Shown piece by piece: positions 14,190-44,194 of a stretch of 45,581 bases of DNA. The DNA is taken from positions 1 through 45,581 of the forward strand of contig JAGOLX010000050.1 of the NCBI GenBank assembly GCA_017993835.1. The letters run 5' to 3'. The position numbers were made by a program, and so were the translations under genes. Below the pieces are notes generated by a model. That model made no database searches. It saw only the letters and a list, made by a program, of their open reading frames with translations, and was not told where the DNA came from. The stretch comes from Phycisphaerae bacterium (GTDB lineage: Bacteria; Planctomycetota; Phycisphaerae; Sedimentisphaerales; Anaerobacaceae). How positions within the stretch are numbered: the first letter of the stretch is position 1; each line of letters opens with the position of its first letter.

Positions 14190-15629
14190 CTATCTGCGCG
14201 CCAAGAGAGCGACGTAGCCGCCGTCATGGTCGAAGGGCCCGGTCGTCGGCAGCAGGAGCGATTCGCCCGCCAGGTTGAACTCGCCATGACCGGCCAGGAA
14301 CGCGCGGATCATGTCCTGGTTCTCCCGGCGCTCGATGCTGCACGTGCTGTAGCAGATCCGCCCGGAAGGCTTGATGAGAGTCGCCGCCCGTTCGAGCAGA
14401 CCCTGCTGGATCATCGCGATCTCCCGCACGGCCTCGGCCGTGACGCGAAATCGAGCTTCGACCCGACGGGCCAGCACGCCCGTGTTCGAGCAGGGGACAT
14501 CGAGCAGGATCGCATCGAAGGGCCCTGTCGCCCGTTGTTCCAGTTGCGCATGCGGGACGATCGTTACGCTCCTAAGGCCAACCCGGGCGAGATTCTCGCG
14601 CACCCGCTCCAGCCGTTCGGGGTCGATGTCCGTGGCGGTGACGCTCGCGGCGTCCCGGGACATCTCCGCGATCTGCACTGTCTTGGCGCCCGGCGCAGCG
14701 CAGAGGTCCAGAATCGACCAGCCAGGCTGCGGGCCCAGGATTCGCACCGCCTGCGAGGCGGAGAGGTCCTGGACGGTGAACAGGCCCTCGGCAAAACCGG
14801 GAAGCTGCGTCACGGCGTGAGGCCCGGTGATTCGGATCATGCCCGATCCCAGGATGGCGTCCTCTCGTTCGCAGTGACGCCGTGAGGCGTTATCAGGATA
14901 TGCCCTTACGGGCACACTACGAACGGGTTCGGCCTGCACGCCGGCGGCCTGGAATCTCGACAGGAGGTCATCGCCCGTCGTTCGCAGGGGATTGACGCGG
15001 AGGTACAGGCCGGGCCTGCGATTGCACGCCAGGCAGATGTCACGGGTTCGCTCGGGTCCGAACTCGTGGAGCCACTCGTCCACGAGCCACGCGGGCAGCG
15101 AGAAGCACAGGCTCAGCCAGGCGGCCGTCGAAGTCGTTGGATCGGGCAGGAAGTCCGTGTCGAACTCGCAGCCCGACTGAGGGGTTTGGGGGAGCGTCCG
15201 TCTGGCGTGGGCTCCCGCGAGGTCGACCTGGCGGTTGGCGATGTGCCGCACGATCTGGCGGAGGACCGCGTTGACGAATCCGCTCTGCTTTCTGCCGCCG
15301 GACGTGCCGACGCTGTTCACCGCTTCATCGACGATGGAATAGACGGGCGTCGCGGGATTGCAGACCAGCTCATAGGTTGCGATTCGCAGGATGCCCAGCA
15401 ACCCGGCGTCGATGCGGACGACCGGCCGGCCCGAAAACGTGGCGATCACCGCGTCGAGGGCGTTGCGGTTGCGGATCACGCCGTAAACAAGGTCGGTTGC
15501 CCGCTGTTTCTGGTCGGTCTGGTCGAGCAGGGGATCGAGCAATCGTCCGGCATAATCGCGTGTCGGGTCGAACCGGTGCAGGACCTGGGCTGCGATCACG
15601 CGCGCCGATTTGAGACTACCCGCGGTCAT
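14190..15629 (-). CDS. rsmB: 16S rRNA (cytosine-C5)-methyltransferase, RsmB type, with repeat-derived insertion
   Basis: A 479-residue enzyme that methylates 16S rRNA C967 with SAM. The N-terminal NusB-like RNA-binding domain (1-150: SARVIAAQVLHRF, QRATDLVYGVIRNRNALD) is followed by the Fmu/NOL1 catalytic domain: LPGFAEGLFTVQDLSAS, LDLCAAPGAKTVQIAE (SAM loop), VTATDIDPERLERV, LLDVPCSNTGVLAR and GRICYSTCSIERRENQ, the last two holding both catalytic cysteines. Between the two domains at about residues 236-254 is an extra stretch, RSVPVRAYPDNASRRHCERE, encoded by a dispersed repeat (14874-14924) found again at 44125-44194. The frame is intact and every catalytic motif follows, so the enzyme is probably functional. 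It is the last gene of lptB-def-fmt-rsmB, 40 bases after fmt. Confidence 0.95.
   Translation of the reverse strand: MTAGSLKSARVIAAQVLHRFDPTRDYAGRLLDPLLDQTDQKQRATDLVYGVIRNRNALDAVIATFSGRPVVRIDAGLLGILRIATYELVCNPATPVYSIVDEAVNSVGTSGGRKQSGFVNAVLRQIVRHIANRQVDLAGAHARRTLPQTPQSGCEFDTDFLPDPTTSTAAWLSLCFSLPAWLVDEWLHEFGPERTRDICLACNRRPGLYLRVNPLRTTGDDLLSRFQAAGVQAEPVRSVPVRAYPDNASRRHCEREDAILGSGMIRITGPHAVTQLPGFAEGLFTVQDLSASQAVRILGPQPGWSILDLCAAPGAKTVQIAEMSRDAASVTATDIDPERLERVRENLARVGLRSVTIVPHAQLEQRATGPFDAILLDVPCSNTGVLARRVEARFRVTAEAVREIAMIQQGLLERAATLIKPSGRICYSTCSIERRENQDMIRAFLAGHGEFNLAGESLLLPTTGPFDHDGGYVALLARR
14874..14924 (-). repeat. repeat family C inside rsmB
   Basis: Two small hairpins in tandem: GACGCC/GGCGTT and TGCCC/GGGCA, ending CACTACGAAC. 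The copy at 44125-44194 has the same two hairpins with a longer spacer between them. Half of the element is also found in mnmE at 22350-22375. Translated here in frame as part of rsmB. Confidence 0.85.
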
Positions 15630-15669
15630 GCGTTGTTCCCTTCAAGACGACGCAGACGGATATGGCCCC

Positions 15670-21422: not shown

Positions 21423-21450
21423 TGTAGGGTGGGCTCTCAGCCCACGCGTT
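21423..21450 (+). repeat. repeat family G (TAGGGTGGGC/GCCCACGCG)
   Basis: Hairpin GTGGGC-TCTCA-GCCCAC. The copy at 40238-40268 reads GTGGGT-TCTCA-ACCCAC: both sides of one base pair changed together. It ends 17 bases before the mnmE start. Confidence 0.75.
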
Positions 21451-21466
21451 GCTTCGATTGTCGATC

Positions 21467-22978
21467 ATGTACGATCTCCGCGACACCATCGTGGCCGTCA
21501 GCTCCGCCGCCGGGGGCGTGCGGTCCATCGTTCGCATCACCGGGCCGCAGGTGCTGTCGGTCTGCGAGCGGATCTTCGAGCCGAGTTCGGGTCCCCAAAT
21601 CGTAAATCGCAAATCGCAAATCGAGAATCGCAGAGTCCTGCCCGGGACGGTCCGCATCGCGGATGACCTGAGCGCGGACGCCTCGCTCTACCTGTTCTTC
21701 TCGCCGCACTCGTATACCGGCGAGGACCTGGCCGAGATCCACGTCCACGTCGCCCCCTGTCTCGTCGAGACGCTGATGTCGTCGCTGCTGGCGCACGGTT
21801 GCCGGGCTGCGGGACCGGGCGAGTTCACCGCCCGCGCCTACCTCCATGGCAAGCTCGACCTTGCCCAGGCGGAGGCAGTCAACGAGGTCATCGCCAGCTC
21901 GAACCGTCTCCAACTGGAGGCGGCCGAGCGGCTCCTGGGCGGTCGATTGACCCAGGCGACCGAGGGAATCCGCACGGCCCTGCTGGACACGCTGAGCCTG
22001 ATCGAGGCGGGACTCGACTTCAGCAGCGAGGACATCGAGTTCATCGGCCGAGAACAGGCGGCGGCGCGACTGTCGGACATCCAGGCGAGCCTGGAGCGTC
22101 TGCTGGCCGGAAGCATCCGATGCGAGGAATTGCTCGATCTGCCCGCGGTCGGGATCGCCGGGGCGCCGAACGCGGGCAAGAGCAACCTGCTCAACGCTCT
22201 GCTCGGCTGGGAGCGGAGCATCGTCTCACCGCAGCCCGGGACGACGAGGGATGTCCTGACCGGCGTGCTGACGACTGTTCGTGGGGCATCCCGCAGCATG
22301 GGCATCTTGCCCGTGATTCGGAATCATGGGCGGGACGCTCATGCTACTGAAACGCCTCACGGCGTCACTACGAACGGCCTCTCCGGCGTGCCGTTCCAAT
22401 GCGTCCTCTTCGACTGTGCCGGCCTGATCCCGTCACCGGACAACGTGCTGGACGAGTTGGCCCAGCGAGCGGCCGTCGAGGCCCTCAATCGCTGCGCCGC
22501 GGTTGTGTTCTGCGTTGATTCCGCGAAGGGCCACTGGGCCGAGGACCTCGCGATTCGTGGGCTCATCCAGCCGAAGCATGCGATCCACGTGGCGACAAAA
22601 TCGGATCTGATCGTCGAAGCCCAACGGCCTCGCAGGTTGAACGAGCTTGCTGGCGCGTTTGGCGTCGAGTTCCTCCCCGTGTCCGCGAGTGCGGGGGCCG
22701 GTCTGGCGGATCTTCTGCTTGCCATCGAGGCAGGCGTGCACAGCACCCCCTGCGCGGCCGATGCGAACGCCGTGGCGCTGACCGCGCGTCACGGACAGGT
22801 TGTGACAGAGGCCCTCGACAACGTCCGCCAAGCTGTCGCAGAAGTGGAGTCGGGCCATGATGAGGTGGCTGCCATGATGATCCGGGCCGCCTGCCAGACG
22901 ATCTCCGGCATCGAGCAGGTGCATCTCGACGAGCAGGTGCTCGACCGGATCTTCTCACGATTCTGCGTCGGGAAATGA
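21467..22978 (+). CDS. mnmE: tRNA modification GTPase MnmE with repeat-derived insertions
   Basis: MnmE with MnmG modifies U34 of several tRNAs. The 503-residue protein is about 45-50 longer than usual. N-terminal folate-binding domain: MYDLRDTIVAVSSAAG, RSIVRITG, GPGEFTARAYLHGKLDLAQA. GTPase domain: G1 GAPNAGKSNLLNALL (about residue 232), G2 PGTTRDVL, G3 DCAGL (normally DTAGL), G4 TKSD (normally NKxD). The C-terminal FCVGK carries the essential Cys. Two foreign stretches are read in frame: QIVNRKSQIENRR at about residues 43-56 (repeat F) and, between G2 and G3 at residues 278-304, SMGILPVIRNHGRDAHAT plus ETPHGVTTNG (repeats D and C). All functional motifs flank the insertions intact. Start ATG at 21467. 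Directly downstream of yidC. Confidence 0.94.
   Translation: MYDLRDTIVAVSSAAGGVRSIVRITGPQVLSVCERIFEPSSGPQIVNRKSQIENRRVLPGTVRIADDLSADASLYLFFSPHSYTGEDLAEIHVHVAPCLVETLMSSLLAHGCRAAGPGEFTARAYLHGKLDLAQAEAVNEVIASSNRLQLEAAERLLGGRLTQATEGIRTALLDTLSLIEAGLDFSSEDIEFIGREQAAARLSDIQASLERLLAGSIRCEELLDLPAVGIAGAPNAGKSNLLNALLGWERSIVSPQPGTTRDVLTGVLTTVRGASRSMGILPVIRNHGRDAHATETPHGVTTNGLSGVPFQCVLFDCAGLIPSPDNVLDELAQRAAVEALNRCAAVVFCVDSAKGHWAEDLAIRGLIQPKHAIHVATKSDLIVEAQRPRRLNELAGAFGVEFLPVSASAGAGLADLLLAIEAGVHSTPCAADANAVALTARHGQVVTEALDNVRQAVAEVESGHDEVAAMMIRAACQTISGIEQVHLDEQVLDRIFSRFCVGK
21596..21632 (+). repeat. repeat family F inside mnmE
   Basis: AAATCGTAAATCGCAAATCG then CAAATCGAGAATCGC, read in frame as QIVNRKSQIENR. 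Homologous AAATC-type repeats lie between genes at 13937, 16668 and 21341 in this window. Confidence 0.8.
22296..22375 (+). repeat. repeat families D and C, adjacent, inside mnmE
   Basis: Family D (22296-22348): hairpin GGGCA-TCT-TGCCC then ATGGGC/GCTCAT. Its relative at 39235-39292 (opposite strand) shares about 30 of 33 bases across GGGCATCTTGCCCGTGAT and the following GAATC. Family C half (22350-22375): AACGCCTCACGGCGTC then ACTACGAAC, as in rsmB and at 44125-44194. Confidence 0.85.
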
Positions 22979-39113: not shown

Positions 39114-39234
39114 ATGCTTGGGCTCCTGACTAGGGGTTTCGATTCTCCAGTATTATGCGGCCGGCGGGCGGTTGTTCAATGCAATTCGTGAATTCTCGAC
39201 AGTCGCGAGCGAACCCGCTATGATGGCCGGACAA

Positions 39235-39292
39235 ACTGGCATGGGTGCAAGTGCCCATGGATTCAGGATCACGGGCAAGATGCCCGTGCTAC
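39235..39292 (-). repeat. repeat family D upstream of the MTA phosphorylase
   Basis: Read on the minus strand: ACGGGCATCTTGCCCGTGAT then CCTGAATCCATGGGC; same family as 22296-22348 in mnmE. It stops one base before the GGAG ribosome binding site of the gene that follows. Confidence 0.75.
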
Positions 39293-44008: not shown

Positions 44009-44124
44009 GAATCTACTCGGAAAGGGTCTTCCGTTGCGGCGACATGCCCCAACTTTCAACAGCCGCTATCATACGGTTCCGCACCCCCGATGTCAACGGA
44101 CTCGCGGCCGATTCTGCGAATGTG

Positions 44125-44194
44125 TTTGTAGTGACGCCGTAAGGCGTTATCTTCCCCGCGCATGGAGATATGCCCTTACGGGCACACTACGAAC
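44125..44194 (+). repeat. repeat family C, intergenic copy
   Basis: GTAGTGACGCCGTAAGGCGT, a 16-base spacer, then GATATGCCCTTACGGGCACA and CTACGAAC. Ends 8 bases before the stop codon of the Hsp70-like gene and follows the kdsB 5' region. Same family as in rsmB and mnmE. Confidence 0.85.

Follow-up and report, generated by a model that had tools for sequence, protein, structure and literature searches.

The window, that is, the whole 45,581-nt stretch of DNA from a Sedimentisphaerales planctomycete that was analysed, contains an ORF for MnmE, the GTPase of tRNA uridine-5-carboxymethylaminomethyl synthesis, which is interrupted in frame by repeat-derived sequence (Table 1). Pfam recognised TrmE_N, MnmE_helical and MMR_HSR1 domains in the ORF, the top Foldseek match of its product was 3gei (E 2e-27), and its closest PDB relatives are 3gee/3geh, MnmE of Chlorobium and Nostoc. 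Besides the TrmE_N, helical and G domains, the ORF has the GKS, TTRD and DxxG motifs and the C-terminal CxGK of MnmE; in alignment A3, GKS, TTRD, DxAG, K378, D380 and C500-G502-K503 are all kept. The product does not reach the NCBIfam cut-offs for MnmE, the match being broken in two at the insert, and annotation calls for caution because a real MnmE here falls short of curated thresholds. The G3 motif, given as DTAGL in an earlier sequence-only reading, is DCAG here, as it is, instead of the usual DTAG, in nearly all Sedimentisphaerales MnmE relatives examined. Other repeats lie close by. A GTAG REP of a further family, B (GTAGGGTGGGCTCTCAGCCCACGCG), is found just 5' of mnmE at 21424-21450, and a family-B-type REP is present both 5' of mnmE and within it in the congener G001. 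The N-terminal domain holds a short insert of AAATCGC-like heptamers; sequence is present at that spot in all eight congeners (G001 to G008) and in G032, a genome from a different genus of this family, mostly of a similar repeat type.

Table 1 Features of the mnmE insert and related repeats in the window
Feature	Position	Strand	Remarks
mnmE (tRNA uridine-5-carboxymethylaminomethyl synthesis GTPase)	21467..22978	+	503 codons + stop; ATG at 21467; from Pfam, Foldseek and relatives
Short tandem-repeat insert (AAATCGC-like heptamers), N-terminal domain of mnmE	21599..21635	+	codes QIVNRKSQIENR
Whole inserted segment, VRGASR...LSGVP	22277..22393	+	from comparison with G002, G003, G007, G008 and about 85 other MnmE
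Degenerate left family-C REP, C2	22274..22291	+	limits uncertain; intact form GTAGTGTGCCCGTAAGGGCATMT; order of REPs the same in L045, L048, L049
Family-D REPIN, inverted GTAG REP pair	22293..22347	.	codes SMGILPVIRNHGRDAHAT; from inverted repeat, fold, copies and covariance model
D2 REP	22293-22315	+	GTAGCACGGGCATCTTGCCCGTG; GTAG altered to GCAG in the mnmE copy
D1 REP	22325-22347	-	GTAGCATGGGCGTCCCGCCCATG; ends CTAC
Family-C REP, C1	22351..22375	-	GTAGTGACGCCGTGAGGCGTT; codes TPHGVTTN; exact copy elsewhere
Intergenic family-D REPIN variant	39228..39292	.	
Intergenic family-C REPIN	44124..44190	.	
Family-C REPIN within rsmB	14871..14920	.	in frame; codes RSVPVRAYPDNASRRHC; rsmB ORF 14193-15641 on - strand

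The inserted segment of 117 nt (39 codons) replaces 2 codons of the insert-free congeners, a net gain of 37 codons, and its translation is VRGASRSMGILPVIRNHGRDAHATETPHGVTTNGLSGVP. TTRD and DCAG, both motifs included, span 61 residues in this MnmE and 24 in the insert-free congeners. The sequence-only reading had described 27 extra residues in a stretch that normally holds about 20. Both figures had to be revised: the uninserted distance between TTRD and DxAG is 16 residues, and the insert is longer because VRGASR before and LSGVP after the two peptides then named are also absent from the insert-free congeners. That reading had also called the junction clean and the frame kept; the frame is indeed kept, but the left junction carries the degenerate C2 REP, which was identified by MAFFT alignment against five compound elements that are intact or nearly so. 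A hand alignment had suggested that C2 lost 12 nt internally; this was set aside, since plain divergence accounts equally well for the MAFFT alignment.

The D1 motif GTAGCATG(G/A)GCGTCCCGCCCATG and C1 have GTAG beside an imperfect palindrome, as GTAG-type REPs do (20-40 bp), and most genomic copies of D1 and D2 carry GTAG at the foot. The hairpin arms at 22295-22319 and 22321-22345 are 80% complementary, as in an inverted REP pair; the DNA fold of 22293-22347 has z = -4.1 against shuffles, and the family-D REPIN consensus forms 19 pairs. The cores of families D and C gave zero chance matches in 100 shuffles of the window. Both of the repeat families named in the sequence-only reading are thus present, but two separate insertions fit less well than one compound element, because the order C2-D2-D1-C1 recurs at other genomic places (L045, L048 and L049). 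Judged from its sequence, the insert is a single compound element in which a D REPIN has one REP of a C REPIN on either side. We identified no target-site duplication at the mnmE insert.

Copies resembling the insert gave 45 BLAST matches across the genome. With both strands of the palindrome counted, the covariance model built for the D REPIN matched 84 times in this genome; six relatives gave 77-122 matches, and G001 and G006 gave one or two. When 16 D-REPIN copies were aligned, the GTAG ends were conserved, and all 16 had exactly one stop-free frame per strand, so that the same peptide (S-G-PV...HGRDAHAT) recurs. In the window, family D recurs (39235-39292) and so does family C (44124-44190), where the sequence-only reading had placed them; a third C copy, within a different gene, spans 14867-14920, and further C1 copies lie at 14867-14891 and 44124-44148. 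The copies are dispersed and mostly intergenic, as expected of REPINs; about 9 of about 50 sampled places lie within genes or between domains with Pfam support, in a census of 40 genome stretches plus the window that favours copies resembling the mnmE insert.

The site was compared among 95 distinct MnmE sampled from Planctomycetota to Bacteroidota and Clostridia. The span from TTRD to DxAG is exactly 24 residues (16 between the motifs) in 89 of them and 46-63 in the other six, which come from this genome, the congeners G005, G004, G001 and G006, and G032. As the sequence-only reading had proposed, intergenic repeats are inserted in frame in this MnmE: the insert is absent at the exact point from four congeners (G002, G003, G007 and G008) and from all distant MnmE examined, while five relatives hold other inserts there. 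The insert sequence differs in each of the six genomes, always in frame. G001 and G004 have GTAG REPINs of two types, and the inserts of G006 and G032 finish with tandem repeats of the TTCAAACT type; further copies of the G001 REPIN and of the G006 and G032 tandem repeats are found in the respective genomes. The G005 insert is weakly repeated, with a few partial matches in its genome, so the inserts at this site are mostly, but not all, demonstrably repeat-derived. In a tree built without the insert columns, the five inserted congeners, including this genome, form one clade (99/96) and the four uninserted ones another (100/98); G032 pairs with the uninserted G045, apart from the inserted congeners. 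A single origin of the inserts including that of G032 was not rejected (AU p 0.097). MnmE of other members of the family (L019, L024, L027, L086, L023 and L036) has more repeat-like inserts, for example NHESRTTNHEPRITNHEP and RNTRYEIRDTKY, directly behind DCAGL and in the segment that links the G domain to the last helices.

In an AlphaFold2 model of the monomer, built with 44 aligned MnmE, mean pLDDT was 84 and fell below 50 only at residues 275-306, in the insert, and at 43-48, in the heptamer insert. Since the model strands 264-270 and 310-316 flank it, the insert lengthens the turn of the beta2-beta3 hairpin, where AlphaFold puts it as a disordered loop. The sequence-only reading had considered this a sensitive part of the GTPase; the model does not support that, placing the insert at a turn between strands. 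The K-loop, switch regions and catalytic glutamate of MnmE act at the G-domain dimer face (PMC2749940).

Copies within other genes, for which that reading had suggested a search, were found in rsmB and in further genes of this genome. Pfam-supported in-frame copies occur in RsmB, AlaRS, KsgA, an FGE-sulfatase domain, DUF790, the linker of an ECF sigma factor and an RNase HI-formyltransferase junction, and a GCV_T protein probably holds another. The same C REPIN occupies the RsmB loop here, in G004 and in G001, close to where the ferredoxin-like domain match ends; G002 has VGWAVPT there, a peptide of the family-B type, G003 has family-D peptides, and some other congeners have no insert. The AlaRS turn GVI-ADGG-FVVE is plain in six relatives; G002, G003, G007 and this genome have inserts there that differ. 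Over four genes, the flanks share one open frame in 72 of 72 tests (some loci represent one gene twice), and the insert lengths at every locus are multiples of three without stops. Where REPINs are shared (KsgA in G000 and G005, RsmB in G000 and G004, G000 being this genome), four-fold sites differ at 4 of 35 positions in the REPINs and at 129 of 325 in the surrounding genes (Fisher p 0.0007, from a small sample), which suggests later overwriting, homogenisation or hairpin constraint. Long ORFs across REPINs in L047, L055 and L058 were left out, being without a coding signal on both sides and probably antisense or chance frames. At L156:2421-3722, RNase HI and a PurN-like formyltransferase lie in one open frame joined through a REPIN, suggesting a gene fusion in which the repeat took away a stop.

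One of the mnmE inserts could be connected to a candidate mobilising enzyme. The REP GTAGGGTGGGGCTTGCCCCACC has 31 copies in G004, none for a reversed control, and 4, 6, 1 and 0 copies in four other congeners; a RAYT-like ORF (L217:1357-1932) has it on either side, and the REPIN within G004 mnmE consists of it. This sequence evidence ties the G004 insert to an enzyme that likely mobilises it. Five Y1_Tnp matches came up in this genome. Neither it nor ten relatives yielded a RAYT flanked by family D, nor did this genome yield an intact one flanked by family C; one C REPIN (L041) has only the remnant of a disrupted Y1_Tnp at a distance of about 0.5-1 kb, and in G008 (L211) a D2 REP is near a short Y1_Tnp gene, on one side only. 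For D and C here, we therefore infer mobility by likeness to known REPINs. In L043, six copies of a different GTAG palindrome, GTAGCCCAGCCGCC..CGGCTGGGG, lie around a RAYT-like Y1_Tnp gene, some of them in its frame.

Taken together, we consider it probable (about 0.85) that the segment is a non-autonomous compound GTAG-type REPIN put into mnmE, the survivors of such insertions having been filtered by selection. A RAYT (REP-associated tyrosine transposase) would move the D/C element in this genome, and insertions would be scattered over it; carriers with a broken frame or fold would be lost, and selection would keep only frame-preserving copies in exposed turns and linkers. From the frame, the protein is presumably translated through the element, and the extra 37 residues may form a floppy loop with no function of its own. 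The best explanation of the comparison among relatives is that the beta2-beta3 turn is a permissive site used repeatedly in this genus, by new insertion or by replacement, and once more in the neighbouring genus of G032.

A variant of this explanation, differing in the number of events, supposes that the ancestor of these five congeners acquired one insert, which was later replaced in place, through gene conversion or new REPINs landing in it, so that the site would be a long-lived socket and not a target struck many times in native sequence; we give it a little less than even odds. Because the five inserted congeners form one clade, ancestral insertion with replacement fits as well as separate insertions. 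G001 and G004 have common flanks (EPS[AD]RL and GTCGTAGGG) around related but differing REPINs, and the lower four-fold differences in the KsgA and RsmB REPINs are expected under overwriting or homogenisation, although hairpin constraint could also reduce them. Against a single event stand the insert at the same point in G032, of another genus and with an uninserted sister, and the AlaRS turn, which is variously occupied in congeners outside the clade (G002, G003 and G007).

The other explanations appear much less probable. Ribosomes bypass elements in T4 gene 60 and in yeast mitochondria, and the strong hairpin within a conserved gene invites the thought that here, too, it goes untranslated, skipped by the ribosome or lost from the mRNA. 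Skipping, however, has no need of the stop-free lengths in multiples of three seen in every locus of four genes, and some of the inserts at this site, in G006 and G032, are tandem repeats and no hairpins, so that we regard this as very improbable. Wrong joining of repeats into mnmE during assembly is harder still to credit. The source genome is a multi-contig assembly (115 contigs) and the genomes compared are metagenome-derived, but the insert is about 0.1 kb long with an ORF exactly continuous across it, and the assemblies of other species hold other inserts at the same place. The refuting outcome foreseen by the sequence-only reading, the same segment in distant bacteria, did not occur: the distant MnmE are without it. 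That reading had also raised altered kinetics. Co-option of the insert to change MnmE activity or partner binding could draw on the persistence of inserts at the site in several lineages, and on the fact that MnmE works by dimerising its G domains via the switch regions (PMC2749940), which are not far from the hairpin in sequence. It is nevertheless unlikely, as sister species hold unrelated peptides at the site, model confidence is low only at the inserts, and similar inserts are present in unrelated proteins; altered kinetics are not needed to account for the data.

GTAG REPs within coding genes have already been reported, most of them in Opitutus terrae, likewise a member of the PVC group (Di Nocera et al. 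2013, PMC3733652), so the mnmE insert is a further case of a known kind; different REPs at about one recB site in two Xanthomonas species were described in the same study. The elements described here resemble GTAG REPs and REPINs (BIMEs) and their RAYTs (PMC3733652; Bertels and Rainey 2011, PMC3116915) in the GTAG at the palindrome foot, the inverted pairs and the tens of dispersed, mostly intergenic copies; a RAYT flanked by the matching REP was seen in one relative, not for D or C in this genome. They are unlike known GTAG REPINs in that one REPIN family is nested between the REPs of another, that one turn of an enzyme holds differing inserts in six related genomes, and that tandem repeats other than REPs use the same site. 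Rickettsia palindromic elements, discussed in PMC3733652, are likewise small palindromes found in frame in functionally diverse genes, but in another host lineage, and we set them beside our elements by description, not by sequence. Coding palindromes of Nematomorpha mitochondria (PMC6649704) are also hairpins within translated genes; there, in contrast, both arms code conserved protein, whereas here the hairpin is extra loop sequence. A search that mostly covered literature outside subscription journals found no description of the present pattern in Planctomycetota beyond PMC3733652. What is new is that, within one genus, several repeat families reuse the same single turns of a number of translation enzymes, and the nested compound element and the turns common to non-REP tandem repeats also go beyond prior work.

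More tentatively, certain turns in this lineage could be standing sockets that the repeat family active at the time re-occupies or overwrites, over and over and in more than one translation gene simultaneously; the loops might then evolve by cassette swapping, in step with the family across the genome, rather than by ordinary point change. The inserts amount to a natural insertion-scanning of translation proteins (MnmE, AlaRS, RsmB and KsgA), which shows turns that accept 20-50 foreign residues, and they provide a clear, testable example of intergenic mobile repeats turning into protein sequence.
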